Of a stretch of DNA of 64,000 nucleotides, positions 20,218 through 46,621 are shown piece after piece. This DNA comes from Kaistia soli DSM 19436. Its GTDB lineage: Bacteria; Pseudomonadota; Alphaproteobacteria; Rhizobiales; Kaistiaceae. The translations under genes were made by a program, and so were the position numbers. Position 1 is the first letter of the stretch; each line of letters begins with the position of its first letter. The notes beneath the pieces were generated by a model. That model ran no database searches, was not told the origin of the DNA, and worked only from the letters and a program-made list of their open reading frames with translations. The stretch covers positions 1,778,615 to 1,842,614 of the forward strand of contig NZ_FQUP01000001.1 in assembly GCF_900129325.1 (NCBI RefSeq), in the 5' to 3' direction.

Positions 20218-21288
20218 CTATTCCTGCCGAGGCTCGCGTTCGGGAAAGCGGATGGTGATGCGCGTGCCGGAATGCTGCACATCGTGCTCGATACTCGCCT
20301 CGAGCTTGCTCGCCAGCGCCTGGATGATCCTCCGCCCGAGGCCCGTGCCGACGGCGCGCGTATCTTCGCCGCTTCCAACGCCGTCGTCCTCGACGGTCAT
20401 CGCGATATTACCATCGATCGCCATACAGGACACGCGAACCGCACCGCTGGCGCCGGGATAGGCATATTTCAACGCGTTCAGAATAAGCTCCGTCATGATG
20501 ACGCCGAGCGCTACGGCGCGGTCGGGACGGATCGCCAGCGGCTCCAGCTTGAATGAGATCTGGCCACCATCTCCATTGGCTTCGATCGTGCGGGCTAGAT
20601 CCTCGATCAGGCTGCCAAGATAGAGATCGAGCGCGACACTATGGACGTCGTCGGATGTATAGAGCCGCCGGTGTACCTGCGAGACCGCCATGACGCGGCC
20701 GACCGCGGCGGCCAGCGCGCTTTTTACAGCGGCATCGGGATGAGCCGCTGCCTGCATGTTCAAGAGAGAAGCGACCAGTTGCAGGCTGTTGCCGACGCGG
20801 TGATTGACCTCCTGAATGATCAACGCGCGTTCATTGGCAAGGGCCTCGAATCGATCCCGGGCTGCACGGACTTCCGCTTCGGCGTGCTGGTGGGCCTCCT
20901 GAAGGCGGCGGGCTGTCAGCGCCGATGCGAGCGCCGCACGGAGGAGGGGAAAGAAGTCTTCACTCGCTTCCTTGATGACGTAGTCGGCTGCACCGGCCTT
21001 CAGCGCAGCGATCGCGATCCGCCCCTGCGCCTCGCCGGTGACATAAACGACCGGCGGCGGATTCGGCATCGCGGCGATCAACGGCAGCACCTGAAGCCCC
21101 GTCCGCCCCGGCATGTGGTGATCGAGCGCGACAATGTCGATGCCGCCTTCGGCCAGCCGCGCGAGCCCGGCATCGCCATCCGTCGCCGTTTCGACAACAA
21201 AGTCGTGGCGCGTCAAGTCCTTGACCGCCAGCCGGCAAAGTCCTGGATCGTCATCGATGAACAGAACGACCGGCTGGGGCTCCATCAC
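20218..21288 (-). CDS. Hybrid receiver - HisKA_2/HWE-type histidine kinase
   Basis: A 356-residue protein with an N-terminal receiver (VLFIDDDPG; phosphoacceptor Asp56 in ALDHHMPG) and then a histidine kinase of the HisKA_2 class with EVNHRVGNSLQ (His163) and an ATPase domain with TELILNALKYAYP and TGLGRRII. Such receiver-first kinases in alphaproteobacteria often feed general-stress or light responses. Its start codon overlaps the stop of the upstream single-domain response regulator by 4 bp, so the pair is translationally coupled. No PhyR or EcfG gene is nearby. Confidence 0.88.
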   Translation of the reverse strand: MMEPQPVVLFIDDDPGLCRLAVKDLTRHDFVVETATDGDAGLARLAEGGIDIVALDHHMPGRTGLQVLPLIAAMPNPPPVVYVTGEAQGRIAIAALKAGAADYVIKEASEDFFPLLRAALASALTARRLQEAHQHAEAEVRAARDRFEALANERALIIQEVNHRVGNSLQLVASLLNMQAAAHPDAAVKSALAAAVGRVMAVSQVHRRLYTSDDVHSVALDLYLGSLIEDLARTIEANGDGGQISFKLEPLAIRPDRAVALGVIMTELILNALKYAYPGASGAVRVSCMAIDGNIAMTVEDDGVGSGEDTRAVGTGLGRRIIQALASKLEASIEHDVQHSGTRITIRFPEREPRQE

Positions 21289-21731
21289 TTTGCCTCGGGG
21301 ACCTTGATCACCGAGAAGAACAGGCCCAGCTGCCTAATGGCATTGGCGAAATTCTCGTAATTGACGGGCTTAACGACATAGACGCTGGCCCCAAGCTCAT
21401 AGCACCGCTCGATCTCGCGCTGATCGTCGGTCGTCGTCAGCACGACGATCGGCGTGGCGCGCAGATGCGGATTGCCTTTCACGGCCTTGAGAATGTCGAT
21501 ACCGGTCATATCCGGCAGATTAAGGTCGAGCAGGATCAGCAGCGCCTCACCTTTCCGGCTCGCGCCGGTCCGATCGGTGCCAAGCAGGAAATCCAGCGCG
21601 CTGGTGCCGTCGGCAAACGCCTTGATCTCGTTGCTGACGCCGGCCCGCCTGATGTTCTTCTCGATCAGCCGCGCATGACCCTCGTCATCCTCGACCATCA
21701 CGATCGTCACGTGATTGGGGTTGTCGCTCAT
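21285..21731 (-). CDS. Single-domain response regulator
   Basis: A 148-residue stand-alone receiver: acidic pocket MVEDDEGHARLIEKN, phosphoacceptor Asp69 in LLDLNLPDMTG, switch Thr in VVLTTT and Lys in YVVKPV. The pattern is that of Rcp1-like receivers that usually accompany phytochrome-type or CHASE3 kinases. It sits between a CHASE3 histidine kinase and a receiver-kinase hybrid, all on one strand. Inference: a phosphorelay in which this protein carries phosphate between the two kinases. Confidence 0.9.
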   Translation of the reverse strand: MSDNPNHVTIVMVEDDEGHARLIEKNIRRAGVSNEIKAFADGTSALDFLLGTDRTGASRKGEALLILLDLNLPDMTGIDILKAVKGNPHLRATPIVVLTTTDDQREIERCYELGASVYVVKPVNYENFANAIRQLGLFFSVIKVPEAK

Positions 21732-21832
21732 CTCGCCGTCTCACGAATTCGTTGCATCGACATCATGACATCCAACCTTCCTTGGACCGAAAGCTGGTCC
21801 TAAACAAGCATTCACAGCGTCGGCAAACCTAT

Positions 21833-23275
21833 TCACTCGCGCCAGCTCCTGGGCAGGATCACCGTGAAGGTGCTGCCTTCCCCGAGCTCGCTGTCGAGGC
21901 GGATCTTTCCGCCTATGCGCCGCACCAATGCCCTGACATGGGCAAGGCCGATTCCTTCGCCGGGACGGTCCTGCGTTCCCGCGCGGCGGAACAATTCAAA
22001 GACGCGCTCGCGGTCGGTCGGATCGATGCCGCGGCCGTTATCGGCGACGCGAATGATCACAAACCCGCCGCGCTCGGCGCCCGTGACTCCGATGCGGCCA
22101 GGGCGCCCCGGCTTCAGATATTTGACGGCGTTGTCGATGAGATTCGAGAATATCTGCTCGATCGCGAGCCGGTCGCTTTCAATCGACGGCAGCGGACCGA
22201 TCTCGATCACCGCGTCGGCCTCCTGGGCCTGATGCGTCACAGCATCCTGGATCGTTTTCAGCGCCTGGCTGAGGTCGATCTGCTGCGGATTGAAATCACG
22301 CCGACCCGCACGCGACAGGTTGAGGATGGCGTTGATCAACCGGTCCATCTTGGAGATCGACGCCTTGATGAAGCCGAGCGCCTCGTCGAAATCGGCGTAG
22401 ATCTGGCTGCGCTGCGGGTCAGCGCTGCGGGCATCTTGCTCGATCAGGTCGTTGCGGATCGCATCGAGCTCGCCGGTGAACCCCATGATGTTGACCAGGG
22501 GGGACCTCAAGTCGTGGCTCACGATGTAGGCGAAGCGTTGCAGCTCATCATTCGCTTCCTGAAGGTCGCTCGTCCTCTCGGCGACCTTCTCTTCAAGATG
22601 GCTGTTGCTTTCGGACAGCTCCTGCTGAGCTCGGGCCAGGCTGAAATGGGAGCGGCGGATCAACAGGATCGAGAGCCCGGCGAGGACCATGATCGCCACG
22701 GCTCCCAGCAGCGTCGTGGCAAGCAGCCAGCGGCTGGTGGTAGCGCCGCGCGCTGTGCGATCGGCGAGAAGCGCCCGTTCGGCGGTGCGCATTTCGGAGC
22801 CGATGTCGGTGAATTCCGCCATCGTCGTCTGGCCGGCCGGATCGCGGATGACGGCAAGTGCTTCTGAATTCCGCCCTTGTCGCTGAAGATCGGCAATCCT
22901 CAACAGTTCGTCATGCTTGGCGGCAACAACTTCCGCGAGCTGTGCGACCCGCGCCGATTGTTCTGGGTTGTCGTCGACCATCGACTGCAGCGCGGCCATG
23001 CGCTCGGGGATCGCGTCGACGCTCTCCTGGTAGACTTTGAGATAGTCCGCATCCGACGTCAGAAGGTATCCGCGCTGTCCGCTTTCCGCGCGGCGGACCG
23101 ACAATTGGAGCAGGGACAGTTGGTTTTCGACGCCGAGCGAATGCGCGACCCACCGCGTGTCGTCAGCGGAGCGTTCCGCCAGCCAAACAGAAGCGCCCGC
23201 CATCACCGTCAGGATTGCAAACCCGACGGCGAGGAGGACGCTCTGGCTGGAAATACGAAGCTGTGCTGGGTTCAT
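21833..23275 (-). CDS. CHASE3-domain sensor histidine kinase
   Basis: A 480-residue membrane kinase. TM1 is at about 12-32, a CHASE3-type periplasmic helical domain follows (ESGQRGYLLTSDADYLKVYQ is the characteristic segment), then TM2 at about 184-206, a coiled coil, HisKA with His254 (YIVSHDLRSPLVN), and HATPase with N/G boxes (NLIDNAVKYLKP, DNGRGI, GEGIGLAHVRALVRRIGG). CHASE3 senses an unknown extracellular signal. The downstream receiver gene starts 101 bp after its stop. Probably one operon with the next two genes. Confidence 0.92.
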   Translation of the reverse strand: MNPAQLRISSQSVLLAVGFAILTVMAGASVWLAERSADDTRWVAHSLGVENQLSLLQLSVRRAESGQRGYLLTSDADYLKVYQESVDAIPERMAALQSMVDDNPEQSARVAQLAEVVAAKHDELLRIADLQRQGRNSEALAVIRDPAGQTTMAEFTDIGSEMRTAERALLADRTARGATTSRWLLATTLLGAVAIMVLAGLSILLIRRSHFSLARAQQELSESNSHLEEKVAERTSDLQEANDELQRFAYIVSHDLRSPLVNIMGFTGELDAIRNDLIEQDARSADPQRSQIYADFDEALGFIKASISKMDRLINAILNLSRAGRRDFNPQQIDLSQALKTIQDAVTHQAQEADAVIEIGPLPSIESDRLAIEQIFSNLIDNAVKYLKPGRPGRIGVTGAERGGFVIIRVADNGRGIDPTDRERVFELFRRAGTQDRPGEGIGLAHVRALVRRIGGKIRLDSELGEGSTFTVILPRSWRE

Positions 23276-24997: not shown

Positions 24998-27900
24998 TCA
25001 GTCGAAGCGGCCGCTTGCATGCGCGAGCATCGTGTAGACCTTGCCCGTATCCGAGACAAGGTAGGCGCTGGCCGTTGACGGGTCCTGGCGGGTTACCTCA
25101 CCAAGCAGGCGCTCGAAGTCCCCGACATAGCGATCGACGGCCGTGCGGAAATCCTGCTCCTGCTGATAGCGGCGGCGGATTTCATCGAAGGTCTGCTGCC
25201 CCTGCAACGTGTAGAGACGGCGGGTGAAGACGTTCTTCTCGCCATTGTGGTGGCGAGACCACAGTTCGGCCGCGGCGCGCGGATCGATTGCCTTGGCAAT
25301 CTCGCTCGAGAGATTGCCAAGCGATTCCTGCGAGCCGGCTGCGCGGGCGGCTGGCTTTTCCTCGGCGGCCGGCTGCTCTTCCTCGCGCGAGGCGCGGCGG
25401 AGCAGATCTGACACCCATCCGCGCGCCTCGGGCTCAGCAGCAGGCTTCGCCGGAGGCTGGGCAGGCTTTGGCGCGCTGGCAACTGGAGCAGCAGGGCGGG
25501 GCGCCTCGACAAAACGCGCGGCGTTGGTCGCAGCCGACCTCGCCTCGTCATCAGTCCGCGACTTGACCTGCGGGGACGCCTCGGCCTGGCGAGCAGGCTG
25601 CGGCGCGGGCGCTGTCGTCTGCACCGGCTGTGGCGCGGGGGCCGCAGACGGTTGCGAGGGGCGCGGCGCAAATGCCTGCGGCTGGGCGCGCGGGGCGCTT
25701 GGCGCGGGCTCGACGAAGCGAGCGCGGGTTGCAGGCTGTCCCGGGGTGACGACGGAGATATCGAGCGCCCGGCCATGCTTGTTGATGATGGCCGACAACT
25801 CGCTGAGAGCCTGCAACTGGTCCGAAACGACCCTGCGCATCGCGTCCGCGCTGGCTCGGGTCTCCTCCGGCAGTTCCAGCACGCCGCGCTTCAGTTCGTT
25901 GCGCGTGCTCTCGAGGTCGTCATGGATGGCGCGCGCGACCTCGCGCATGCCGTCAGTGGCCGATGAGAACTGGCCGGTCGCCTGGCTGACGGCCGTGTTC
26001 ATTTCTTCCAGCAGCGTGCGATTGACCTGACGGACCTCGTCGAGCGCCTTGCGGCCGACGGTGGATGCCGTCTGGTGCAGACCCTCAAGATTCTCGACGA
26101 CGCCCTTCGCGGCATCGGCGCTCGACTGGGATAGCAGCCGCGCGACCTCCGCTGCGCGGTCCTCGGCGTCCTTGACGCTTGCGGAGACGCTGTCGGCGAA
26201 GTTCTTCATGCGGCTTTCGAGGTCGCCGGCGCGCGCCGCAAGGCTCGCGGCAAGCTCCTCGATCGCAGCACGGCGGTGGTCGACCGATCCTTCGAGCTGG
26301 CTGTTGGCCTCGAGCAAGGCCCGGGCGGCCTCGCGCATGGCGCGTCCCTGCTCCTCGAACCGGCCGGCGACATTGCCGACATTCTCGAGGACGTCATGCG
26401 AAACATCGCGCAGCGTCTCGACCTGGCTCGCGAGAAGTCCGGCCGAGCCTTCCGTGCTGGTGACGGCGCGGTCGATCGTTTGCGCGAGTTCGCCCGTCCG
26501 ATTGGCGAGGCCAATCTCGATCCGGTTCAAATTGTCAGCGCTGCGGCTCAGCAGCGTATCGAGCAACTGGTTGGACTGCCCAAGCCGTTCGACGACGCCG
26601 GCGACATCGGTCGTCAGGCGCTGATTGGCTTCGCCGAAGCTCTGCGCGACGGTTTCGCCGCTTTCGATCAGCGTCCGCGTCGCCCTGTCGGTGCTGGAAA
26701 GCACCATCGAGACGACCTCGTTGCCCTTCGAGGCGAGAAGTTCAACCACCGCGTCGCCAACCGATGCGACACGCTGCGTCAGGTCATTGCCGTGCTGATC
26801 CATCGCGCTGACGAGACGATTGCCCTCGCCATCGAGCAGACGGGACAGTTCGGCGCTGCGGCTGCCGAGAACTTCGTTCAAGGCGCGTGTACGCTCCTCG
26901 ATCGCATCGGCGGCGGCGCTGGCACGGACCGAGAGGGTCTCCTCGACCTCTGTCGAGATGCGGCCGAGATGCCCGACCACATCGCCGGAGAGACGGGCGA
27001 AGGCCTCGCTTGTATCTGCTGAAGCGCGGCGAAGCTGTTCGCTCGCTTCGCCAGCCGAGGCGGCAAGGCGACCCGCGGAATTCGCGGCAGCGGTGGTCAG
27101 CGACTGCGAGGCTTCGTCAGCGCTGCGCAGCAGACGCTCCGATGCACCCTCGACCGACTGGCCGAGCGTTTCGGAGGCATCGCCCACAGACCGCGACAGC
27201 AGGTCCGCGACGCCGTCGAGGCTGCGAGACAGCGTCGTCGAGGCTTCGCCAGCCGAACGGATGACCGTTTCGGAAGCGAGGTCGCTGAAGCGATTGATGA
27301 GCTGCGATGCATCTTCGACGGAGCGGCCAAGGGCTTCCGCTGCCGATTCTGCCGAGCGTGAAACCCGGTCCGAGGCTTCTTCGGCGGCCGAGCGCACGGC
27401 GACACTCGAATTCGCCGACAAATCGACGAGCCGGTTGGTCGCATCGGCCAGCGATGTCGAGATTTCCTCGGCGGCGCGGGCGGATTCACGCCCGAGCGTT
27501 GCGGAGATATCGGCGAGGCGGCTCGCCAGAACGTCGTCCATCGCCGCGGCGCGGGCGTCGAAACCCTCCGTCGCCTCAGCCGCGCGGCGACCGAGCGTCT
27601 CGTTGATCGCCTCGGTGCGCTCGGCCAGCATCTCAGCCAGAGCTTCCGTCCGATCGGCCAGGCGGCCGGTCAGGTCCGAAAGACGCTCCTCGATGATCGC
27701 GTTGATCTCGCCCTGGCCGCTGACGAAGGTATCGGCGATCTCGCGGGTCCGTTCGACCAGCGTCTGGTTAATCTGCAGCGCTCGGTCACCGATGGTCGTA
27801 TCGATGGCGCGGGCCTGCTCGTCGAGCATGTTGGAGGCAGCTGAAAGCTTTGCCTCCATCGTATCGCCGAACCGGGTAATCCGCTCATTCAGCGTGCCGT

Positions 27901-30900
27901 CCATCAGGTTGGCCCGATCGGAGAAGCGGCTGATCAGCTCTGGGCCGCGCACCTCGATGATGTCGCGCAGCGCCGCGAAGCGCTCGTCGAGGCCGGTGGC
28001 GATCGCCTGACCGCGGTCGCCGATCAGTTCGCTGAACTGCGTCGAGGTGTCGACGATGCGGTCGTGAGCGGCTGCGGCGCGCGTCTGGATGTCTTCGGCA
28101 AGCTCAACGCCCGTCGTGACGATCCGTGCATGCGTCGCGCTCGCCTGGCCGGCGATCTCATCGATCAACGACGAACCCGCCGTGACGATGCGGTCATGGA
28201 TGGCGATGCCACGCCCGTCGATTTCTTCGGCAACGGTGGTGCCAGAAGCGATGATGCGATCCTGGACGAGATTGGCCCGCGTCTCGATCTCCTCGGCGAT
28301 ATTATTGCCAGCGGCGACGATCTGAGCGTGAGCGGCATTGGCCCGCGCCGTGATCTCACCCGACAGTGCATTGCCCGAGGAGAGGATCTGCTGGTGCACA
28401 GCTGTGCCGCGCTCTTCGATCGCCCGGGCAAGCTCCGTGCCACTGCGGCTGATCTCGTCATGCGCGGCGGCCGACTGGCTGGTCAGCTGATCAATCAGCG
28501 CATTGCCGGAGCCGAGAATACGCTCATGCACGGCCGTGCCGCGGCCTTCGATATCGTCGGCGAGGCGGTGGCCCGAATTGACGATCTGCTCGTGTGCCGT
28601 GTTGGCGCGAAGGACGATCTCGCTCGCGAGCTGCTCGCCCGAAGCGACGATCTCGGCATGAACGGCGCCCCCACGGCGAGCGATTTCCTCGGCAAGGCTT
28701 CCGCCTGCCGTCACGATCTGCTCATGCACGGCCTCGACCTGGCCGGCGATGTCGGAAGCCAGCGCCTCGCCGGAAGCAAGGATCTGCTCATGCAGAGCCG
28801 TGGCGCGGCTTTCGATCTGGCCGACAATGTCTCCGCCGCTGTTCACGATGCGCTCGTGTACCGCTTCAACCTGGCCGGTGATCTCGCCGACAAAGGCCGA
28901 GCCCGACGAGACGATGCGTTCATGCACCGCATTGGCGCGGTTCTCGATCTCGTTGGCGACATTGTAGCCAGACGTGACGACCTGCGCATGCACGGCGCCA
29001 ATCTGGCCGGCGATGTCGCTGACCAGCGTTTCGCTCGCTGCCAGAATGCGCTGGTGGACAGCGTTGCCGCGGTTCTCGATCGCATCGGCCAAGGTCGATC
29101 CCGTTGCGACGATGTGCTCGTGCACGGCACTCGCCTGGCTGGCGATCTCATTCACGAGGCCGGAGCCCGAGGCGACGATGCGTTCATGTGCGGCGCCGGC
29201 ACGGCTCTCGATCTCGTTGACGAGATTGGTGCCCGACGTGACGATGCGGTTATGAGCGGCATCGGCGCGCGTCTCGATCGCGCTGGAAAGGCTTGAACCT
29301 GACTCGATGATCCGGGCATGCACCTGCTCGGCGCGTTCGGCGATCTCCTCGGCAAGGCCAGACCCGGAGGTGACGATCCGGCCGTGCGCTTCATCGGCGC
29401 GAGCGGAAATCTCGTCGGCGAGGCTCGTACCCGAGGCGACAATACGCCCATGGGCTTCATCGGCCCGGTTCGCGATCTCGTCCGCGAGACGCGAGCCCGA
29501 GGCGATGATGCGCTCATGCACGTCGACGCCGCGCATTTCGATCGTCTCGGCAAGCTGATTACCGGAGGCGAGCATCTGCTGATGGATGGCGGTGCCGCGG
29601 GATTCGATCGCTTCGCTGAGCTGCTGGCTGGTGGTGATAACGAGGTCATAGACCGCGTTGCCACGGCTCTCCATCGTCTCGGTCGCCTCGCGGCTGGCCG
29701 CGATGAAGCGCTCATGGAGCATCTCGGCGCGCGAGGCCATCGTGTCGGCGATCTCGGAGCCGGACGTGATGATGGTCTCATTGATCTTGAGACCGCGCAT
29801 GGTGATGGCCTTCGCCACCTCGCCGCCGACCTGGGCAAGTCGTTCGGTCAATTCGCTCGAGCGGGCGTCGAAGGTCTCGTTCACGGCGTTGGAGGCGACG
29901 TCGATCGTCTCGCGGAGCGCCGCGGTTCGTGCCTCGAGCAGATTGGCCATCATGTCGCCGGCGGCATTCAGCCGATCGGCAAGGCCGCCGCCATCGATCG
30001 AGATCGAGTCCTGGATGCGGTCGCCGGTCGAAGCGAGGCGTCCGGCGAGATCATCGCCGCGGGCGCTGATCGTGTCAGCGATGCGCGTGCCCGTCTCGTC
30101 GAGCTTCTCGTTGATCTCCTGACCGCGTAGCGCGAGGTCAACGATCAGGCTGTCGGCATTCGATTTCAGCGCCGCGTTCACCTCGCGGGTGTGGTGCGAG
30201 ATCGTCTCGGCGACCTGGTTGCCCGTCAGGGCGATCGAGCGGGTGATGTCGATCGTGCGGCGGTCAAGACCGGCCGCCAGCTCCTCGGTAATGCGGGCGA
30301 GGGTGTCGTTGACCTCGCGGCCGCGCTCGGCGACCGTCTCGGCCATGGCGCGGCCGGTCATCTCGAGAGTCTCGTTGATGTCGGTCGAGCGGACGAGCAG
30401 GGCGTCCGTCACGTCGGCGCCGGTGCGCGACAGCGTCTCGGTCACTTCGCCGACGGCGCTGGTCAGGCGGCTGACGAGATCGTCGCCGCGCCCGGACAGC
30501 TTGTCGATCATATCGTCGCCGGCAGCCGACAGCGTCACTGTGATCTGCTGGCCGCGATCGGCGAGGGCCGCCGTGACGCGCGCGCCGGATTCGATGACAT
30601 TGCTGGCGATCTGGTCGCCGGTCTCGCGCAGGTCCTTCCCCAGCGTCTCCTGCGCGGAAACGATGGACGAGCGCACGCGCTCGGAATTGACGACGATCGC
30701 TTCGCGCTGATTGGCGAGGTCGTCGATGAGCCCGCGCATGCGCAGTTCATTGTCGGAATAGGAGCGTTCGAGCGCCGCGACCTCGTTGTGAACCAGCAGT
30801 TCGAGCTCGCTGGCGCGGGCGAGGGCCCGTTCGATGCCGTCGCCCATGGCGGCGACTTCACGGCGAATGGCCTGGCTGACCATGACGACGGAGTCGGTGG

Positions 30901-31561
30901 CAGCGTCCTCGGGTTCGGCAAGCCGGGCCGCGACTTCGGAAATCGAACGCGCGGCGATGCGCATTTCCTGGGCGCGGGCAACCATCATCGCGATGCCCCA
31001 GATAATGCCGAGCGGCAGTACGAAGGCGAGCACGACATTGGCGAATTGAGCGGCGCCGAGGCCGCCGGCACCAGCGAGCGGATCAACGCCCGACGAGGTC
31101 AGGAACACGAACATCGCGCCGATCCAGATGAGCGACAAGGCGGCTGCGACGGGATAGATGACACGGGACGGACGGCGTGCAGGCAAAGTGGCACCGGCAA
31201 CGCGGCGATCGTCATTCGCGGGTGCACGGCCCTTGCGATCGACGCGGCGGGGGCGCTGGGCGATGTCTTCGGCACCGTCGCGCGCTTGGGCGTCGGCCTT
31301 AGGGGCGCCGCGGGACGCTGCCGCCGGGCTGTCGCCCTTGCGCGGCGAGTCGGATCTGCGAGGGCCCTGGTTCGGGGCCTGTCCGGTTGCCCGGAGGGGC
31401 TCGTTGATGCGGGGCATTTCGAGCCGCCGGTCGCGCGGTCCGCCCTGAGCAGCCTCTCGGCTGGGTTCGGCGGCCGAAGCGGCGGGATCGATCCGGAGCG
31501 CCTCCTCCACGGCGGAGAGAACTGCGTCCGCCGGGTCCTTGGACTTCGGAGTATTCACCAT
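24998..31561 (-). CDS. Giant repeat protein, growth pole ring (GPR)-like
   Basis: A 2187-residue protein. A basic, disordered N-terminus (1-130) leads into two membrane helices (about 134-154 and 173-195), then more than 1300 residues of helical 22-residue repeats of apolipoprotein type, a Pro/Ala-rich linker and a conserved C-terminal domain (NVFTRRLYTLQGQQTFDEIR, then YVGDFERLLGEVTRQDPSTA). Size, two N-terminal TMs and apolipoprotein-like repeats match the Agrobacterium GROWTH POLE RING protein, a >2000-residue protein forming a ring at the growing pole and needed for polar growth and rod shape. The homology is my reading of architecture. It is divergent from an Hpt gene. Confidence 0.8.
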   Translation of the reverse strand: MVNTPKSKDPADAVLSAVEEALRIDPAASAAEPSREAAQGGPRDRRLEMPRINEPLRATGQAPNQGPRRSDSPRKGDSPAAASRGAPKADAQARDGAEDIAQRPRRVDRKGRAPANDDRRVAGATLPARRPSRVIYPVAAALSLIWIGAMFVFLTSSGVDPLAGAGGLGAAQFANVVLAFVLPLGIIWGIAMMVARAQEMRIAARSISEVAARLAEPEDAATDSVVMVSQAIRREVAAMGDGIERALARASELELLVHNEVAALERSYSDNELRMRGLIDDLANQREAIVVNSERVRSSIVSAQETLGKDLRETGDQIASNVIESGARVTAALADRGQQITVTLSAAGDDMIDKLSGRGDDLVSRLTSAVGEVTETLSRTGADVTDALLVRSTDINETLEMTGRAMAETVAERGREVNDTLARITEELAAGLDRRTIDITRSIALTGNQVAETISHHTREVNAALKSNADSLIVDLALRGQEINEKLDETGTRIADTISARGDDLAGRLASTGDRIQDSISIDGGGLADRLNAAGDMMANLLEARTAALRETIDVASNAVNETFDARSSELTERLAQVGGEVAKAITMRGLKINETIITSGSEIADTMASRAEMLHERFIAASREATETMESRGNAVYDLVITTSQQLSEAIESRGTAIHQQMLASGNQLAETIEMRGVDVHERIIASGSRLADEIANRADEAHGRIVASGTSLADEISARADEAHGRIVTSGSGLAEEIAERAEQVHARIIESGSSLSSAIETRADAAHNRIVTSGTNLVNEIESRAGAAHERIVASGSGLVNEIASQASAVHEHIVATGSTLADAIENRGNAVHQRILAASETLVSDIAGQIGAVHAQVVTSGYNVANEIENRANAVHERIVSSGSAFVGEITGQVEAVHERIVNSGGDIVGQIESRATALHEQILASGEALASDIAGQVEAVHEQIVTAGGSLAEEIARRGGAVHAEIVASGEQLASEIVLRANTAHEQIVNSGHRLADDIEGRGTAVHERILGSGNALIDQLTSQSAAAHDEISRSGTELARAIEERGTAVHQQILSSGNALSGEITARANAAHAQIVAAGNNIAEEIETRANLVQDRIIASGTTVAEEIDGRGIAIHDRIVTAGSSLIDEIAGQASATHARIVTTGVELAEDIQTRAAAAHDRIVDTSTQFSELIGDRGQAIATGLDERFAALRDIIEVRGPELISRFSDRANLMDGTLNERITRFGDTMEAKLSAASNMLDEQARAIDTTIGDRALQINQTLVERTREIADTFVSGQGEINAIIEERLSDLTGRLADRTEALAEMLAERTEAINETLGRRAAEATEGFDARAAAMDDVLASRLADISATLGRESARAAEEISTSLADATNRLVDLSANSSVAVRSAAEEASDRVSRSAESAAEALGRSVEDASQLINRFSDLASETVIRSAGEASTTLSRSLDGVADLLSRSVGDASETLGQSVEGASERLLRSADEASQSLTTAAANSAGRLAASAGEASEQLRRASADTSEAFARLSGDVVGHLGRISTEVEETLSVRASAAADAIEERTRALNEVLGSRSAELSRLLDGEGNRLVSAMDQHGNDLTQRVASVGDAVVELLASKGNEVVSMVLSSTDRATRTLIESGETVAQSFGEANQRLTTDVAGVVERLGQSNQLLDTLLSRSADNLNRIEIGLANRTGELAQTIDRAVTSTEGSAGLLASQVETLRDVSHDVLENVGNVAGRFEEQGRAMREAARALLEANSQLEGSVDHRRAAIEELAASLAARAGDLESRMKNFADSVSASVKDAEDRAAEVARLLSQSSADAAKGVVENLEGLHQTASTVGRKALDEVRQVNRTLLEEMNTAVSQATGQFSSATDGMREVARAIHDDLESTRNELKRGVLELPEETRASADAMRRVVSDQLQALSELSAIINKHGRALDISVVTPGQPATRARFVEPAPSAPRAQPQAFAPRPSQPSAAPAPQPVQTTAPAPQPARQAEASPQVKSRTDDEARSAATNAARFVEAPRPAAPVASAPKPAQPPAKPAAEPEARGWVSDLLRRASREEEQPAAEEKPAARAAGSQESLGNLSSEIAKAIDPRAAAELWSRHHNGEKNVFTRRLYTLQGQQTFDEIRRRYQQEQDFRTAVDRYVGDFERLLGEVTRQDPSTASAYLVSDTGKVYTMLAHASGRFD
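28050..29766 (-). repeat. 26 tandem 66-bp units encoding 22-residue repeats in the GPR-like gene
   Basis: Units of 22 residues with the pattern G-s-x-L-a-x-E-I-x-x-R-a-x-x-x-H-x-x-I-v-x-S run from about residue 599 to 1170. I counted 26 consecutive units, nearly all with His at the same position (for example VHERI, AHGRI, VHEQI). One His is replaced by Tyr (VYDLV) and one by Gln (VQDRI). More diverged 22-mers continue N-terminal to this block (about residues 370-598). Units are similar but not identical at DNA level, so the array is old rather than a recent expansion. Confidence 0.85.
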
Positions 31562-32291: not shown

Positions 32292-32612
32292 ATGGCCAAG
32301 ATTACCTATATCGCCTTCGATGGCACGGTCTACGACATCGAAGCCCGCGAGGGCACGACCGTCATGGAGAATGCCGTCCGCAATTCCGTGCCGGGGATCG
32401 AGGCCGAATGCGGCGGCGCCTGCGCCTGCGCCACCTGTCATGTCTATGTCGATCCCGACTGGGTCGAAGCGACGGGCGAGCCGCAGCCGATGGAAGAGGA
32501 CATGCTGGACTTTGCACAGGATGTGCAGCCGAACTCGCGGCTGTCCTGCCAGATCCGCGTTACGGCTGCGCTTGACGGCCTGATCGTGCGCGTTCCGGAG
32601 AGTCAGGGCTGA
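32292..32612 (+). CDS. [2Fe-2S] ferredoxin, adrenodoxin/ISC type
   Basis: A 106-residue ferredoxin. Cluster ligands Cys40, Cys46, Cys49 ([16 protein letters not shown]) and Cys86 (RLSCQIRV) follow the CX5CX2C...C spacing of vertebrate-type and P450-type ferredoxins. The acidic C-terminal half (EEDMLDFA) is the usual partner-docking surface. It lies upstream of a ferredoxin-NADP reductase with a 130-bp gap, suggesting an electron-transfer pair. The cytochrome P450 at 45.3 kb is a possible acceptor, as are Fe-S assembly enzymes. Confidence 0.92.
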
Positions 32613-32628: not shown

Positions 32629-33771
<1,143 letters not shown>

Positions 33772-35301: not shown

Positions 35302-36342
35302 TCAACCCCGCCCCAGTTCGTCCTCGATGGGACGACCCTTGCCTTGGTTGATGCGAGCAAGCTCAGCCATGAAATCAGCCATCGCCGGGGGCTTTTCCGA
35401 CTGAAATGGTAGCGGCCGACAAACCTCGATCGCCGCGATCCCGACGCGCGCCGTCAGGATGCCGTTGATCACGCCTTCGCCGAGCCGTGCCGAAAGCCGC
35501 GCCGCGAGCCCGTGTCCAAGCACTTGCTGCACCAGGGAGTCGCCTGCAGCCATGCCCCCGGTTACAGCGAGATGGCCGACCACGAGCCGCGCCAGACGCA
35601 GGAAGCCGAGGGTGCCCGGCCTCCCGCCATAGAGCTGGCCGAGCTGACGGATCAGCCGCAGCGCCGAGACTAGGACAAACAGCACGTCGACGGCTGCGCG
35701 CGGCGAAATCGCTGTCACGACTGTCACACGCTTGGCGCTCGCCAGAACGAGGCTCTTCGCGGCGGTGTCGAAACTCGCCAGCAATTCGCGTTCGGCAAGG
35801 CCGATCAGATCGCGCCCGTCGATGATCTCGTCGGCGTGGCCGGCCAGATTGGAGCGACCCTTCGCTGTCTCGGCCCGCTCGCCATAGAGATCCGCAAGAT
35901 CGCGCACCACGGCCCGCGCCGCCTTGCGATCGTCGCGGCGTGAAGCGGCCTCGGCGTCGTCGCGGATACGGTTGATGCGTCGCAGCCGCATGAGCCCGCC
36001 GACTTCGCGGACGGAAATCGCGACAACTGCCAGCGCCGCGCACGCGGCAGCGCCGACGGCGATCCAGCCGAGCCAGTCGGCGCGGTCGAAGAGATCGCGG
36101 ATAAGGCGGTCGATCGCGAGGCCAATGCCAAGCGAGACGAGAACGCCGAGCGCGGAAAAAAGGATGTCGGACCAACGCATGCGGCGCCGCAGCTTCGGAA
36201 GCACGACAGGCACGGGTTCGTCGTCAGGTTCCGTCAGGACGACGGGCTGATCGGACGGGCGCAACGCCGCGTCCGGGTCATCGGTGACGCGGATACGGTC
36301 GAGGCGAAACGCTGCGGGTCGCCGGGGTGTCTCGACGGTCAT
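35302..36342 (-). CDS. YcjF / TIGR01620 family inner membrane protein
   Basis: A 346-residue membrane protein. Two helices (about ILFSALGVLVSLGIGLAI and WIAVGAAACAALAVVAISV) are followed by a cytoplasmic region with the DUF697-type VTAISPRAAVDVLFVLVSAL and a Gly-rich segment (GLAARLSARLGEGVINGILT). YcjF proteins pair with the YcjX GTPase-like protein; the pair is conserved and linked to phage-shock/envelope stress in enterics, with unclear function. Its ATG overlaps the ycjX stop codon by 4 bp. Confidence 0.9.
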   Translation of the reverse strand: MTVETPRRPAAFRLDRIRVTDDPDAALRPSDQPVVLTEPDDEPVPVVLPKLRRRMRWSDILFSALGVLVSLGIGLAIDRLIRDLFDRADWLGWIAVGAAACAALAVVAISVREVGGLMRLRRINRIRDDAEAASRRDDRKAARAVVRDLADLYGERAETAKGRSNLAGHADEIIDGRDLIGLAERELLASFDTAAKSLVLASAKRVTVVTAISPRAAVDVLFVLVSALRLIRQLGQLYGGRPGTLGFLRLARLVVGHLAVTGGMAAGDSLVQQVLGHGLAARLSARLGEGVINGILTARVGIAAIEVCRPLPFQSEKPPAMADFMAELARINQGKGRPIEDELGRG

Positions 36343-37880
36343 GCGAGTCGATCTCCGACAAGGAATTCGAGCGCACGGTCGAGACGGATATGCGGCAGAG
36401 AAAGCTTCATGCCCTCGGCCGTGCGCTCTAGGGCAGGAGGGCGGAAGCGCACGAAACGCAGTGGCGGTGCCCGCTCAGAAGTTGAGTCAACACCTTCGAG
36501 CGCTGCTCCCGGATTCCTCGGCAAGTCACCGGGAAAGAACGCAATTTCGGTCCGGCCGTCGAAGATCTCGCCCTCGAACAATTCGCCCGCCAGCGGCGTC
36601 CCGATGATCGATGGCAATTTCTGATTGCCGGCAGTAACAACGCCTTCGCGCGTCGCGCGGACGGAGGCGAGAGCTGCGATCTCGACGCGCGCGCCGGCCT
36701 CTTCCGCGCGGGCGATCGCCGGAGCCAGCAGGTGGCCGAGGATGCGCTCCAGCCGGTCATGATCGGCGTGATGGAGATGATCCGCCTTGGTAGCGCCGAT
36801 CAGAATGCGATCGATGCGCCGTGTGAACAGGCTGCCGAGCCAGGACGTGGCGCCTGGCCGATAGCTCCCGAGGATTTCCGTCAACGCCGCGGAAAGATCG
36901 GCGACGGCCGCAGGGCCGGCATTCAGCGCGTTCAGCGCATCGACCAGCACGATCTGGCGGTCGAGGCGGGCGAAATGATCGCGGAAGAACGGCTTCACGA
37001 CGACGGACTTATACGCTTCGTAGCGCCGCGCCATCATGCGGGCGAGCGATCCAGACGGCGCATCGCCGACCTCGCCAGGCAGCGGGCAGAAGGTGAGTGC
37101 CGGAGAGCCATCGAGATCGCCGGGCATCAGGAAGCGGCCCGGCGGCAGCGTCGAAAGGGCATGCTCATCCGCGCGGCAGGCGCGCAGATAGTCCGTGAAA
37201 AGTACTGCGAGTTCTCGGGCGACGGCTTCGTCTTCCGCCGCTGCCGCATTTGCGGCTTCGGCGCGGGCCAGGAAAGCGGCGGCAGCCGGCGGCCTACCCG
37301 GGCGACGGGCCAGCGCAATCGCCTCGCGCGACCAGGCGGCATAGTCCTTGGTGAGCAGTGGCAGGTCGAGCAGCCACTCGCCGGGATAGTCGACGATGTC
37401 CAGATTGAGCGTGCCGGAGCCGAGGCGCTGGCGGAGGAACGAGGCCGACTCGTAGGCGATCGATAGGCGAAGCTCGCTGATGCGGCGCGTCGAGTCCGGC
37501 CAGATCCGGTCCTCGACCAGCGCGCGGACGTGATCTTCGTAGTCGAAGCGCGGTACGTCGTCGTCAGGCTGGGGCTCAAGTCGCGCGCCCGTAACGCGGC
37601 CCGTTGCATAGGCGCGGAAGACGGGCAGGCGGCCGCCATGGACGAGATTGTGCACCAGCGCGGTGATGAACACGGTCTTGCCGGCGCGCGCCAGTCCGGT
37701 CACGCCGAGGCGGACAGTTGGGTTGACGATGTCGGTTGCGCGGTCTCCCAGCGTTGCGAAGGCGAGACGGGCTTCGTCGGCAAGGCTCGAGAGATTCAAT
37801 CGGAGTCCATCCGTTGCCAGAATTGACGTCGCGCCGCGGCGTCGCGGAACGCGGGGTGCCAGCGACGATGTAGGAACCAC
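36339..37880 (-). CDS. YcjX-like (DUF463) P-loop protein
   Basis: A 513-residue protein with a P-loop at residues 62-69 (TGLARAGKTVFITALVHNLV), the YcjX-type IVDYPGEWLLDLPLL switch region, QIVLVDALNALNAG and LIGATKADHLHHADHDRLE. The family binds GTP and acts with the membrane protein YcjF, whose gene overlaps its stop codon. Length is close to the family's usual size. SixA lies 18 bp upstream on the same strand, so sixA-ycjX-ycjF is probably one operon. Confidence 0.92.
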   Translation of the reverse strand: MVPTSSLAPRVPRRRGATSILATDGLRLNLSSLADEARLAFATLGDRATDIVNPTVRLGVTGLARAGKTVFITALVHNLVHGGRLPVFRAYATGRVTGARLEPQPDDDVPRFDYEDHVRALVEDRIWPDSTRRISELRLSIAYESASFLRQRLGSGTLNLDIVDYPGEWLLDLPLLTKDYAAWSREAIALARRPGRPPAAAAFLARAEAANAAAAEDEAVARELAVLFTDYLRACRADEHALSTLPPGRFLMPGDLDGSPALTFCPLPGEVGDAPSGSLARMMARRYEAYKSVVVKPFFRDHFARLDRQIVLVDALNALNAGPAAVADLSAALTEILGSYRPGATSWLGSLFTRRIDRILIGATKADHLHHADHDRLERILGHLLAPAIARAEEAGARVEIAALASVRATREGVVTAGNQKLPSIIGTPLAGELFEGEIFDGRTEIAFFPGDLPRNPGAALEGVDSTSERAPPLRFVRFRPPALERTAEGMKLSLPHIRLDRALEFLVGDRLA

Positions 37881-41049: not shown

Positions 41050-42357
41050 CTAGGTGCGGCGGCTGCCTGAGATCTCGCCGAGAAGGCGGGCCATTTCCTT
41101 CTCGAGATCACCGACCGAACTCGCACGGCTCCGGTCCTCGGGCTCAACGGGAGGTGCTTCCTCGAGCGGCTCTTCGGACAAGCGCGGCTCGCGCGGCGGT
41201 TCGATCGACGGCGCCGCTATGGCCGGTTCGCGCATCGGGCGCATCGGACGGCCCGGATCGCGGACGTCATCCGGATTGATGTCGAAGATCGGCTCGAAGC
41301 GCGGGGCGTGATCGGGATCGGCGATCGGCGCGCCATAGGGTGCGTCACCCATGACAGGCGGGGCAACGGGTGGGGCCGGCGGCATCGCCGGACGCGGCTG
41401 CGGCCGAACCGGCTCCATGCGCGACGGCTCCGGACGCAACGCGTCGGAACGCGAGACTTCCGCGCGGGGCGGCTCGACAGCGGGCGCGACGTCAACAATC
41501 TCTTCCGCGGGGGGCTCGGGTGCCTTGGGCGCCACGGGCGTGGTCCGGCCGAGAGGGCGCATGGGCGGCTCTGGCCGGCGCGGTTCGGCCTGCGACTCCG
41601 AGGTGGACGGCTCAGACGCTGCGCGGCCACGGCCAACTGCACCCAGGAAAGATGCCATCGCACGTGTCGGCCTCGCCGGCGGCTGCGGCGCACGCACAGT
41701 CGGCGCAGGCTCCGGCTCGGCTGCGACTTCGACGATCTCGACGGCTTCCGCTACCGTGACCGTCTCGATGGCCGAGACAGGCTCTTCCTCGGCACGGACT
41801 TCTTCCGCCTGCTGCGGCTCGCGATTGGGCGCCTCAGGTTCCATCACCGGCGGGACGTATGCTGTGCGAACCGGCTCTGGCCGGCTCGGCTCGGCGCGCG
41901 GCGGTTCGCTCCAGGCGGCAGGCTGAGCCTGCGGCGGCTCGGTATAAGCCTCATCCGCCGGGCTGCGCGTCGGCTCACCGAGCGGCGGCGCGGCCTGATA
42001 GCGCTGCGACTGGCCGGTCGCCCGGGCTGCCGCCTCGGCACGACGCTGGGCTGCGGACGGGCGATGGATTGCCGCCTCGACGACGAGGTCGGTAGGCCCA
42101 CCGATCAGGATGAGATGCTCGACATTGTCGCGCCTCACCAGCACCAGCCGGCGCTTCTGGTCGACGGGGAGTGCATCGAGGACGCTGAGCCGCGGCTGGC
42201 GGCCACGGATCGCGGTCGTACCGATCCGGTTGCCCGTGAAGGTCCTGATCAGCCAGAACACGATCAATATGATGATGGCGACAATAACCAGCGTGATCGC
42301 AAACTGAGCGATCATGGCGCCGGTCGTGCCGAGCATCGGTTCGAGATAGTCACGCAT
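41050..42357 (-). CDS. FliO-like flagellar protein with long Pro/Glu-rich tail
   Basis: A 435-residue protein. One N-terminal membrane helix (AQFAITLVIVAIIILIVFWL) is followed by a FliO-type domain (PRLSVLDALPVDQKRRLVLV, RDNVEHLILIGGPTDLVVEA) up to about residue 90. The remaining 340 residues are low-complexity Pro/Ala/Glu/Arg-rich, ending in a short helix (SVGDLEKEMARLLGEISGSR). FliO helps assemble the flagellar export gate. The ATG at 42357 is chosen because AGGAG lies 7 bp upstream on the minus strand. Convergent with dksA, divergent from cckA. Confidence 0.75.
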   Translation of the reverse strand: MRDYLEPMLGTTGAMIAQFAITLVIVAIIILIVFWLIRTFTGNRIGTTAIRGRQPRLSVLDALPVDQKRRLVLVRRDNVEHLILIGGPTDLVVEAAIHRPSAAQRRAEAAARATGQSQRYQAAPPLGEPTRSPADEAYTEPPQAQPAAWSEPPRAEPSRPEPVRTAYVPPVMEPEAPNREPQQAEEVRAEEEPVSAIETVTVAEAVEIVEVAAEPEPAPTVRAPQPPARPTRAMASFLGAVGRGRAASEPSTSESQAEPRRPEPPMRPLGRTTPVAPKAPEPPAEEIVDVAPAVEPPRAEVSRSDALRPEPSRMEPVRPQPRPAMPPAPPVAPPVMGDAPYGAPIADPDHAPRFEPIFDINPDDVRDPGRPMRPMREPAIAAPSIEPPREPRLSEEPLEEAPPVEPEDRSRASSVGDLEKEMARLLGEISGSRRT

Positions 42358-42704
42358 CCCGCTCTCCTGGTGCGCCGGCACCGGCAAGGGCGCCCGCCAT
42401 CGTCAAGGTCCATGCGCGACAAGCGCGCAGCATCAGAATGGGGTTTTCGTGCGCCGGCTCGCAGTTGGCAAGGGCTGCGACGACGAATCGGCTTATCAAT
42501 GCCGAAAAGCCGTTAGCAATTCACTAACCATCACGTGAACAAGCTGGCTCGATTACTGCGCGAATCGCCTGTTCGAGCCGTCTTCCGAAAGTCCGCGATC
42601 GTGCTCCCGCAGCTGCACCGCATCAATGCCGCCTCCTTCACAGCCCGCCGGGACAAGACCGGGCCGGGCTCGGCTGTGGGCTGCGTTGCGGCAGGTGGCA
42701 TGCG
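42358..42704. other. Divergent regulatory region between the fliO-like gene and cckA
   Basis: 347 bp with no supported gene. It holds a CtrA-like site (42513-42531) and a GAATC (GANTC) methylation motif at 42485-42489. Frames antisense to cckA that reach into this region are shadows. Confidence 0.55.
42513..42531. promoter_or_regulatory. Candidate CtrA binding site
   Basis: TTAG-CAATTCA-CTAACCAT resembles the CtrA consensus TTAA-N7-TTAAC with the frequent CAT extension, with one deviation in each half. It lies 156 bp upstream of the fliO-like start and 174 bp upstream of cckA. Flagellar genes are classic CtrA targets. Confidence 0.35.
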
Positions 42705-45239
42705 ATGACGGGCCGATTCGGCGTGTCCGGAGAGCGCCCCCCGGTTATTGATCGCGCCGGACGGACGGGTGGTATCGGCCGGCTCGTGGTGCTGGCGGTC
42801 GCGCTCGTCGCCGTAGCCGTGGCCGGCGCCATGCTGCCGCCTTCCTCCGCGCAACCTTTCATCTTCGCCGTGCTCGGCATTCTTGCGGTGCTCGGTGTCT
42901 TCACGCTTTTCGCGGCAGCGATCGGGCTGGTGCGCTTCGGTGGCCAGGTTCCGCGCGACGATCTCGCGCGCGGCTTCATCGATTCGATGACTGAAGGCCT
43001 CGTCATCAGCGACCGCGAGGGGCGCATACTCTATGCCAACGGCGCCTATGCGGATCTGATCGGCGCTGACGACGAAAGCGATGTCCGCGTCATCGAGCGG
43101 GTCTTTTCTGGCGACCAGGCCGCCAGCGAGGCGCTCTATCGCCTGTCGCAATCGGTTCGCCATCAGCGCGCGGCGGTCGAGGAAATCCGCATGCCAGCGC
43201 CGCTGTCCGGCACCGGGCCGATCGGCCCGCGCTGGTACCGCGTCCATGCCCGGCCGATCCATGCCGGCGATCAGATCCTGACCGCGTGGCGGCTCGCCGA
43301 CATCACGGGCGATCGCGAGCAGCAGGAGACGGTGTTCCAGGACTTGCAGCATGCGATCGACTATCTCGATCATGCGCCGGCGGGCTTTCTATCCGCGGAA
43401 CCGGATGGGCGTATCGTCTATCTCAATGCCACGCTTGCAGAATGGCTTGGCATCGATCTCGCTTTCTTCAAACCGGGCTCGATCGCGCTTTCGGACATCG
43501 TACGCGGCGACGGTGCGGCGCTGCTCGCGGCCGGCAATGCGCGGCCGGGCGGCAGCGAGACGGAGATCTTCGACCTCGATCTCGTCAAGCAGAACGGCCA
43601 GAGCCTGCCGGTGCGCTTCCTGCACCGCGTGCCGTATGCGCATGACGGTGCGCCGGGCGCGACGCGCACCATCGTCCTCAACCGCGGCCCGGGAGAGGAT
43701 GTGTCCGAGGCGCTGCGTGCGGCCGAGGTTCGCTTCACGCGCTTCTTTAACCATACGCCCTTCGCGATTGCGTCCGTCGACCGCAGCGGCCGCATCGGCC
43801 GGACCAATGCCGCTTTTGCGCGGCTGTTCGGCTCCGTACAGGGCCAGGGCGGTGGCCGTCTTCGCCTCGCCGATCTCGTCACGGACGGCGGGCGCACAGC
43901 GATCGAGAGCGCTCTCGAAGCGGCCGCGGCCGGTCATGGCGATATCCCGTTCGTCGATGCCAGCGTCGCCGGCGCCGGCGACCGTAGCACGCGCTTCTAT
44001 GTCAGCGCCGTCGACGAAGGCGCCGACGAGCATGAGATCGCCACGATCTATGCACTCGACACCACGGAGCAGCGCGCGCTGGAGCAGCAGTTCCAGCAGA
44101 GCCAGAAAATGGAGTCGATCGGCCAGCTTGCCGGCGGCGTCGCGCACGACTTCAACAATGTCCTGACGGCGATCATCGGCTTCTCCGACCTGCTGCTCGC
44201 CAATCACCGCCCGTCCGACCCGTCCTTCCAGGACATCATGAACATCAAGCAGAACGCCAACAGGGCCGCGGGCCTTGTTCGGCAGCTGCTTGCCTTCTCC
44301 CGCCGACAGACGCTGCGCCCGCAGATCCTCGCCATCGGCGACGTGCTCTCCGATCTCTCCATCTTGCTGGAGCGGCTGCTTGGCGAGAAGGTCAAGCTCT
44401 CGGTGGTGCACGGCCGCGATGTCTGGCCGATCAAGGCCGATCTCAACCAGTTCGAGCAGGTCGTCATCAATCTCGCGGTCAATGCGCGCGATGCGATGCC
44501 CAAGGGCGGTCAGCTCACCATCCGCACCCGCAACATCCTGCCAGCCGATTGCGCCGCCTTTGGATACAAGGCGTTGCCGGCTGCGGAATATGTGTTGATC
44601 GAAGTCGAGGATACCGGCACGGGCATTCCGCTCGAGGTCCAGTCGAAGATCTTCGAGCCGTTCTTCTCGACGAAGGAAGTCGGCAAGGGCACCGGGCTCG
44701 GCCTATCGACCGTCTATGGCATCGTTCGCCAGACCGGGGCGCACATCTTCTTCGACAGCGTTATCGACAAGGGCACGATCTTCCGCATCTTCGTGCCGCG
44801 CCATGTCATGATCGAGCAGCCGAAGGCCGAGCTCGTTCCCGACAAGCCGCAGGCCAAGACCGACCTGACCGGCAGCGCCAATATCCTGCTCGTCGAGGAC
44901 GAAGAGGCGGTCCGGGCCTTCGCTGCGAGAGCCCTGGCGTCGCGCGGCTATACGGTGCACGAGGCGTCATCGGGCGCAGAGGCGCTCGAAGTAATGGAGC
45001 GCACCGGCGGGTCGATCGATCTCGTGGTCTCCGACGTCGTCATGCCCGAGCTCGACGGCCCCTCGCTGTTGCGCGAATTGCGCAAGACGCGGCCGAACCT
45101 CAAGATCATTTTCGTCTCTGGCTATGCCGAGGACGCTTTCGCCAAGAATCTGCCCGACGGCGAGAATTTCAGCTTCCTGCCGAAGCCGTTTTCGCTGAAG
45201 CAGCTGGCGACGGCTGTGAAGGAAGCGCTGGGCGAGTAG
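42705..45239 (+). CDS. cckA: Cell-cycle hybrid histidine kinase CckA
   Basis: An 844-residue hybrid kinase. Two N-terminal membrane helices lead into PAS domains ([38 protein letters not shown]). HisKA has His481 in [20 protein letters not shown], the HATPase has [14 protein letters not shown] and [20 protein letters not shown], and the C-terminal receiver has [17 protein letters not shown] with Asp777 in [13 protein letters not shown]. CckA phosphorylates ChpT and thereby CtrA, controlling cell division and motility. Domain order and length match rhizobial CckA. Confidence 0.93.
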
Positions 45240-45340
45240 ACGTTTGGCGCTCCTCGTGCTTGGGCTCGTGTAATGGCCGCTTGCATCCAATCCGTCCGCA
45301 TCCGAACCTCGGCCGGTACACCACGGACCGAGACGAAAGC

Positions 45341-46621
45341 GTGATCATCCACCAGCCGACCGCCGATGGCCTCCCGCCGCATCCCACCGTTCCCTTTCGC
45401 ATCGATGCTGCGACGCGACGCGTCTCCATCGACGCGCGCAATCCGGCCTTCTTCCAGGATCCCTATCCCGCCTTCGAGGCGATCAGGGCCGAGATGCCTC
45501 GCTTCTTCTGGGAGGAATACGGGCTCTGGTGCTTCGTCAATGCCGATGACGTGCACGCGCTCTTCCGGGATAAGCGCTTCGGCCGCGAGATCCTCCACCT
45601 CGCGACTCGCGAGGAACTGGGATTGCCGGAGGTGCCCGAGCGCCTCAAGCCTTTCACCGATGTCGACAAGCTCTCAATGCTCGATCGCGAGCCGCCGGCG
45701 CATACGCGGCTACGCACGCTCGTCAATCGCGCCTTCGTCTCGCGGCAGGTCGAGCGGCTGCGGCCGCGCATCGCGGACCTTGCCAATGAACTGATCGATC
45801 GGTTCGAAGGGGCGGGGGAGGTAGACCTCATCGAGGCCTTCGCGACGCCGATCCCGGTCATCGTCATCGCGGAAATGCTTGGCGTGCCAACGAGCCGGGC
45901 CGGCGATTTGCTCGACTGGTCGCACAAGATGGTCGCGATGTATCAGTTCGGCCGCACACGGGCGACCGAGGACGCGGCCGTCGCGGCGGTGCAGGATTTT
46001 GTCGCCTATCTGAAAGAGGTGGTCGCTGAACGGCGCAAGGCGCCAGCCGACGATCTCGTCTCGACGCTGATCGCCGCCGAGGAACAGGGCGACCGGCTGA
46101 CCGAAGATGAGCTGATCGCGACCATCATTCTGTTGCTCAACGCCGGCCACGAGGCGACCGTGCATGCCATCGGCAATGGCGTAAAGGCAATCCTGGAGAC
46201 CGGGCTTGATCCGGCGGCTATCTTCGCGACCGAAGACAGCGTGGCGGCGACGTCCGAGGAGTGCCTTCGCTTCGATCCGCCGCTGCATTTCTTCTCTCGC
46301 TATGCGCTTGAGGACCTCGATTATGCCGGCATCTCCCTGAAAAAGGGCGACAGCGTCGGCCTTGTGCTCGGCGCCGCCAACCGCGACCCGGCGCGCTATG
46401 TCGATGCAGCCCGCTTCGATCCTGATCGGCCGGCGCTCGCACATTTCGGCTTCGGCGGCGGCATCCATTTCTGCATCGGCGCGCCATTGGCGCGGCTTGA
46501 ATTGCAGGTCGCTTTGCCGATCCTCTTTTCGCGCCTGCCGGGCCTCAGGATCGCGTCCCCGCCGAGCTATCGCGACAGCTACCATTTCCATGGACTGGAG
46601 GCCCTGCACCTCGCCTGGTGA
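45341..46621 (+). CDS. Cytochrome P450
   Basis: A 426-residue soluble bacterial P450. The heme loop FGFGGGIHFCIGAPLARLE carries the axial Cys378, the I-helix motif is LLLNAGHEATVH (Glu before the Thr in place of the usual Glu/Asp-Thr pair order AG-x-[ED]-T), and SEECLRFDPP is the K-helix ExxR. A GTG at 45341 is the chosen start because the family N-terminus (DARNPAFFQDPYPAFEAIRA) begins about 30 residues later. Its electrons may come from the ferredoxin/reductase at 32-34 kb. The substrate is unknown. A hydrolase gene follows by 41 bp. Confidence 0.9.
   Translation: MIIHQPTADGLPPHPTVPFRIDAATRRVSIDARNPAFFQDPYPAFEAIRAEMPRFFWEEYGLWCFVNADDVHALFRDKRFGREILHLATREELGLPEVPERLKPFTDVDKLSMLDREPPAHTRLRTLVNRAFVSRQVERLRPRIADLANELIDRFEGAGEVDLIEAFATPIPVIVIAEMLGVPTSRAGDLLDWSHKMVAMYQFGRTRATEDAAVAAVQDFVAYLKEVVAERRKAPADDLVSTLIAAEEQGDRLTEDELIATIILLLNAGHEATVHAIGNGVKAILETGLDPAAIFATEDSVAATSEECLRFDPPLHFFSRYALEDLDYAGISLKKGDSVGLVLGAANRDPARYVDAARFDPDRPALAHFGFGGGIHFCIGAPLARLELQVALPILFSRLPGLRIASPPSYRDSYHFHGLEALHLAW

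Follow-up and report, generated by a model that had tools for sequence, protein, structure and literature searches.

The window analysed here, a stretch of 64,000 nucleotides from Kaistia soli DSM 19436, contains a gene for a 2187-residue protein. We consider it very probable that this gene is the Rhizobiales (Hyphomicrobiales) ortholog of GPR/RgsE, a growth pole ring protein, and that this identification, with a long helical rod and a role as polar organiser, is the best explanation of the evidence in full. The gene itself is an ordinary family member; what is new in this analysis, and the part most worth following, is the family-wide phase coherence of the rod.

Both non-repeat ends of the protein match RgsE of Sinorhizobium meliloti. 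The reference was LZK74_25975 of S. meliloti Ak57 (CP090106.1), which is annotated as 'kinesin' and whose 2,089 amino acids (aa) equal the published length of RgsE (SMc00190; PMC7327166). Identity to it is 60% across 152 aa for the C-terminal 140 aa of the window protein (E 4e-57) and 48% across 155 aa for the N-terminal 260 aa, which reach through the membrane region (E 1e-33). A homolog from Agrobacterium vitis matches at 58% over 153 aa (C-terminal) and 44% over 156 aa (N-terminal) with the search space fixed at 1e9, and the copy of Agrobacterium sp. a22-2 also matches at both ends. The initial annotation had called the protein GPR-like and had named the lack of GPR similarity outside the repeats as the point that would count against this; the similarity found lies at both non-repeat ends, which upholds that identity. 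S. meliloti RgsE shares with the window protein the membrane helices, the juxtamembrane stretch, the apolipoprotein-like repeats, the proline-rich linker, the C-terminal domain and a ferredoxin neighbour, although identity over the whole length is only 27% (E 2e-131). GPR of Agrobacterium tumefaciens (Atu1348; 2,115 aa) has the same architecture according to its published description; the ring, the hexamer and the phenotype are those of GPR, whereas the window protein is known here from its sequence. The RgsE homolog of Brucella abortus, which is reported to lie at the new pole, was likened by description as well.

The gene layout agrees with the initial annotation in most respects. The reading frame it proposed is complete from ATG to TGA and lies on the minus strand, which had been left unstated (Table 1); the two N-terminal membrane helices correspond to two hydropathy peaks; and the repeats, given as more than 1300 residues, extend over approximately 1,650. 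The N-terminus ahead of the helices is rich in arginine and proline, the 23-residue interhelix loop contains no lysine or arginine, and four such residues follow the second helix. From the two hydropathy peaks and their charged flanks, the bulk of the protein is predicted to be cytoplasmic. GC content at the three codon positions of the frame is 70/51/80% (65% for the window), and the start and entire length are common to a relative deposited as 'Mesorhizobium sp. BR1-1-16' (L060; deposited name unconfirmed), whose protein has 93% identity across 2184 aligned residues. A single site in the 5.2-Mb genome matches the C-terminal 140 aa, so the gene is present as a single copy. When a profile of the C-terminal domain was run against the PDB, no convincing match emerged (seven sequences, E 0.0027 or worse, from designed or coiled-coil proteins).

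The rod consists of 11/22-residue helical units, and its 22-mers are amphipathic. Residue identity at a lag of 22 is 3.0 times expectation (residues 211-1860), and hydrophobic periodicity is strongest at 3.67 residues (11/3), with a power of 61 against a mean of 0.83. Residues 216-1850 carry a net charge of -109 and include 12 lysines and two prolines. Twelve stretches of the protein match the Pfam apolipoprotein family PF01442 (E 1.6e-69; 233.9 bits, cut-off 90), which S. meliloti RgsE matches too (E 7.6e-77). Across the order, the commonest repeat lag was a multiple of 11 in 110 of 117 sequences, including 37 of the 38 that came from outside a Rhizobiaceae-centred scan. Among 20 sequences from outside the order, hand-picked by the analyst out of 73 positives, this was true of one, and lags of 25 or 50 were foremost in 15. 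The helical period is approximately 3.57 outside the order, 3.62-3.66 in order members that have MreB and mostly 3.65-3.67 in the remaining order members, a shift that tracks clades as much as MreB. The window protein groups with the long, hendecad form of the family.

An unlikely alternative is that the protein handles lipids, its repeats being apolipoprotein-like amphipathic helices that sort or sequester them; Zupan et al. 2021 suggested this role for GPR and modelled two of its domains on apolipoprotein A-IV (PMC8262873). The PF01442 score far above the cut-off and the amphipathic 22-residue units favour this possibility, and the exchangeable apolipoproteins of PF01442 (A-I, A-IV and E) are likewise built of 11/22-residue amphipathic helical units. 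In those proteins, however, the 22-mers are interrupted by proline. Such proline-punctuated 22-mers were not found in residues 216-1850 of the window protein, and across 117 homologs the rod has 0.21 prolines per 100 aa. The window protein further differs in being membrane-anchored, in the extent of its repeats and in its fixed helical phase; its rod is strongly acidic, and helical phase is kept in the family across as many as 2,071 residues, a constancy for which independent lipid-binding units would have no use. Identity as a free apolipoprotein was rejected, although these points may be compatible with some lipid contact.

Conservation of phase was measured on the helix span, defined as the distance from a juxtamembrane anchor to an end-of-helix anchor, both placed with the help of profiles; 116 of the 118 sequences yielded a span, as one anchor was missing in L046 and one in L078. 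The spans range from 422 to 2071 residues and take 76 distinct values. These show phase coherence at 11/3 residues per turn (R 0.57; p ~1.6e-11), and none at 3.6, 25/7, 5.5, 11 or 22. When periods from 2.05 to 60 were scanned, the peak fell at 3.668, and none of 2000 jittered control sets reached the observed value. These p-values ignore shared descent. The fairest test, which keeps a single row for each family (27 rows with spans of 422-1908 residues), gave R 0.50, a value reached by 14 of 20000 jittered sets. Alternative anchor columns gave R 0.55-0.70, and two negative-control spans that include the proline-rich linker showed no coherence (R 0.06 and 0.06). Period-11 coherence was 0.25 within Rhizobiaceae and 0.35 within the other rows, and period-5.5 coherence was 0.39 in both, so that gain or loss of whole 11-residue units makes a partly real contribution to the signal. 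The spans of the window protein (1633 residues) and of a genus mate (L157; 1721 residues) differ by 88, or eight hendecads. Duplication of whole 11-residue units as the sole cause was rejected, since over all distinct spans 11/3 alone stands out. Across the family, then, rod length varies freely while rotation is preserved; this speaks for a single continuous rod and disfavours a ring size set by rod length. We infer that the rod acts as a single uninterrupted unit whose length does not determine ring size. The initial annotation had asked how a repeat scaffold sets a ring of fixed size, and this question is now sharper, helix length being unconserved and helical phase conserved. It also becomes directly testable by comparing 11-residue changes, which keep the phase, with 4-5-residue changes, which break it.

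These data suggest a mechanism. The two N-terminal helices would anchor the protein in the inner membrane with both ends cytoplasmic, and a near-continuous alpha-helical rod on an 11-residue (hendecad) pattern would lead from the membrane to the proline-rich linker and the C-terminal domain, the N-terminus marking the membrane foot of the rod. An alpha-helix rises 0.15 nm per residue, so 1,700 residues span approximately 255 nm, and the rod of the window protein approximately 245 nm. Polar growth in A. tumefaciens requires GPR, whose six foci make up a ring 200 nm wide (PMC8262873). In the same work Zupan et al. gave 600 nm for an extended 1,700-residue GPR helix, from which they concluded that folding is required; this figure fits approximately 0.35 nm per residue, an extended chain and not a helix, and folding is not forced by the argument because the residues span far less when alpha-helical. 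Nor need the 50-nm GPR focus hold the whole rod, because GFP sits at the N-terminus. A continuous rod could bring its distal end and the C-terminal domain to neighbouring feet, which by our computation are ~105 nm apart on a 200-nm ring, and the kept phase may reflect selection for an apolar stripe that runs unbroken from foot to tip in a set orientation. RgsE is membrane-anchored and cytoplasmic (PMC7327166), and its B. abortus homolog is found at the new pole (PMC9938171); by homology, the window protein would gather at the growing pole and organise envelope synthesis there.

The distribution of the family bears on the meaning of its presence. Its C-terminal domain, whose conservation had been claimed initially, was detected in 60 of 61 relatives (the miss, G052, is a 67% complete genome) and in 146 of 150 genomes sampled from the order (all but G253, G281, G337 and G354). 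In a sample of the class, 76 of 192 genomes matched, or 73 of the 189 outside the order; all of these counts describe samples of available genomes. The gene is therefore nearly universal in the order sample, and the description of it as the most unusual gene of the window applies to its size and not otherwise. Named homologs came from a scan that confirmed 564 hits, of which the best 80 were taken; the ranking depended in part on how close a hit lay to the query's Rhizobiaceae half, so that the list is uninformative on distribution. These homologs belong to Rhizobium, Sinorhizobium, Agrobacterium and their kin, including A. vitis (L073, L081), Agrobacterium sp. a22-2 (L084) and R. rhizogenes (L063), with L060 as the nearest. 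Occurrence outside the order is not new, because distant RgsE homologs in Emcibacterales and Rhodospirillales were already noted by Krol et al. 2020 (PMC7327166). In addition, a large plasmid record of Sphingomonas parapaucimobilis (CP155749.1:600487-600816) encodes a distant C-terminal domain of the GPR type (34.5%).

MreB was not found in the window genome, where the three profile matches were Hsp70, FtsA and an Hsp70-like protein, and no PBP2 exceeded the cut-off (best score 111 of 455 bits). A full MreB match (E below 1e-100) was present in 18 of the 150 order genomes, and all 18 also have the GPR domain, 15 of them in a frame with two N-terminal membrane helices and repeats; of the other three, two have frames truncated at a contig end (L147, L149) and one has a short frame (L145). 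This last one (G287) has the domain in a 452-aa frame away from any contig end, compared with 1138-1498 aa in its family mates, which points to a broken gene or a sequence error. Outside the order, MreB (E below 1e-60) was detected in 69 of the 73 family-positive genomes, the four without it being G095, G179, G217 and G244. PBP2 was present in five of seven MreB-bearing or MreB-candidate genomes (G038, G044, G051, G057 and G255, but not G028 or G058). Krol et al. 2020 found MreB in four Rhizobiales species without Rgs homologs and suggested mutual exclusion (PMC7327166). Contrary to that suggestion, GPR and MreB coexist, a count that is new as far as our literature search went. GPR presence was accordingly rejected as a marker of polar growth, which is of relevance to the field in general. 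The initial annotation had viewed the gene as a reason to consider this organism a candidate polar grower; such a use of the gene is weak, yet the organism is likely to grow at its pole, because its genome lacks MreB and PBP2 and its order is known for polar growth.

Frames with the GPR domain had a median length of 1094 aa in the 18 MreB-bearing genomes and 1826 aa in the 128 MreB-less ones (p 5e-6, uncorrected for descent), some of them shortened by contig ends. All 89 frames of at least 1,500 aa belong to MreB-less genomes; the frames of all 18 MreB-bearing genomes fall below this length, as do 39 of the 128 others. A descent-aware test yielded four independent pairs on supported branches (two in the same direction, none opposite, two equal; p 0.5), which leaves a link between length and MreB independent of descent unproven.

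The MreB counts are relevant to a second alternative, a general coiled-coil organiser anchored in the inner membrane that has no special tie to polar growth, belongs to a family older than MreB loss and may serve another envelope role. The family's occurrence in non-order alphaproteobacterial genomes that mostly have MreB, and in all MreB-bearing order members, is what such a protein would predict; the lack of MreB and PBP2 in the window genome, the long, hendecad form of the window protein and the growing-pole location of three studied relatives argue against it, and we regard it as distinctly improbable. There is a negligible chance that the protein is a ZorA-like or other coiled-coil protein resembling GPR in its repeats alone, since the weak matches to ZorA (anti-phage; E 8e-4, residues 1443-1682, 17.8 of 190 bits) and PspA (E 1e-7, 31.1 of 850 bits) are far below the curated cut-offs and lie in the repeat/linker part while the non-repeat ends match RgsE, and kinship to either was rejected as far as sequence can do so.

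Several observations weigh against identification as a GPR/RgsE ortholog with a polar role. Identity within the repeats is only 23-28%, as for any repeat of such composition, and the ZorA and PspA matches show that a few chance-like profile hits occur on this protein. S. meliloti RgsE and the A. vitis homolog served as stand-ins for Atu1348 of strain C58. As the family co-occurs with MreB, its presence is no proof of a polar-growth role, and the six non-order homologs with both anchors showed no phase coherence (R 0.34, p 0.50). Localisation and phenotype, including the polar location, the ring and the scaffold role, would be carried over to the window protein from studied relatives.

Taken jointly, the phase and distribution data allow a tentative reading, quite possible in our view, in which GPR is a phase-locked rod older than polar growth and selection keeps the rotation between its ends and leaves its length free. 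The family would already have existed in MreB-bearing Alphaproteobacteria with mixed-period repeats (25 residues and 3.57 per turn outside the order; approximately 3.62 in most order members that have MreB). MreB-less lineages would then have acquired a longer, purely hendecad rod (3.66-3.67), whose expected supercoil handedness would be switched; the rod would transmit orientation, and ring size may be set otherwise or vary between species. For the window, a striking gene is settled as a conserved single-copy member of its family.

Table 1. Features of the gpr/rgsE locus, with positions in the window
Feature	Position	Strand	Basis or remark
gpr/rgsE ortholog, 2187 aa	24998..31561	minus	ATG at 31561, TGA ending at 24998
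First membrane helix, residues 134-152	31106..31162	minus	Hydropathy peak 2.14; 10 K+R in the preceding 30 residues
Second membrane helix, residues 176-194	30980..31036	minus	Hydropathy peak 2.56
Juxtamembrane conserved stretch, residues 195-285 (serving as N anchor for the phase measurement)	30707..30979	minus	Alignment with S. meliloti RgsE; anchor profile
Helical repeat rod, residues ~196-1860	25982..30976	minus	Hydrophobic period 3.67; 2 prolines in 216-1850
27 consecutive 22-residue units in a single register, residues 597-1190	27992..29773	minus	Printed 22-mers
Pro/Ala-rich linker, residues ~1925-2050	25412..25789	minus	Limits by eye; 26 prolines in residues 1861-2060
C-terminal conserved domain, final 115 residues and stop codon	24998..25345	minus	Alignment
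2Fe-2S ferredoxin (Fer2) gene, divergent gpr neighbour	32292..32612	plus	Pfam PF00111
Pyridine-nucleotide oxidoreductase gene (PF07992)	32674..33771	plus	Second conserved neighbour; homolog in 11/20 loci
cckA, cell-cycle histidine kinase	42705..45239	plus	NCBIfam NF046020, 1263.5 bits (cut-off 1000)

The neighbourhood of the gene is conserved. All 20 loci under comparison have a ferredoxin homolog near gpr, which in 19 of them lies on the other strand (the exception being L021), and a ferredoxin gene is also annotated beside rgsE in S. meliloti. In the latter, however, a gene for an Hpt-domain protein (L163:3081-3449) lies between the two; no counterpart was noted in the ferredoxin-gpr gap of the window, where no search was aimed at one. 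In 7 of 12 genomes, no more than 66 kb separates cckA from gpr. Downstream of gpr, a minus-strand signalling cluster (20218-23275) comprises a CHASE3 histidine kinase (21833-23275), a stand-alone receiver (21285-21731) and a receiver-HWE/HisKA_2 kinase (20218-21288). A YcjX-like (DUF463) and DUF697 pair is also encoded near gpr on the minus strand (35302-37880), with homologs in 6 of the 20 loci within the stretch compared. Adjoining cckA, a minus-strand frame at 41050-42387 (445 aa from its first start) has a sub-threshold N-terminal FliO match (37.9 of 55 bits). On the plus strand, a frame at 44549-46621 encodes a cytochrome P450 in its C-terminal half; its first start overlaps cckA, the real one probably lying close to residue 290.

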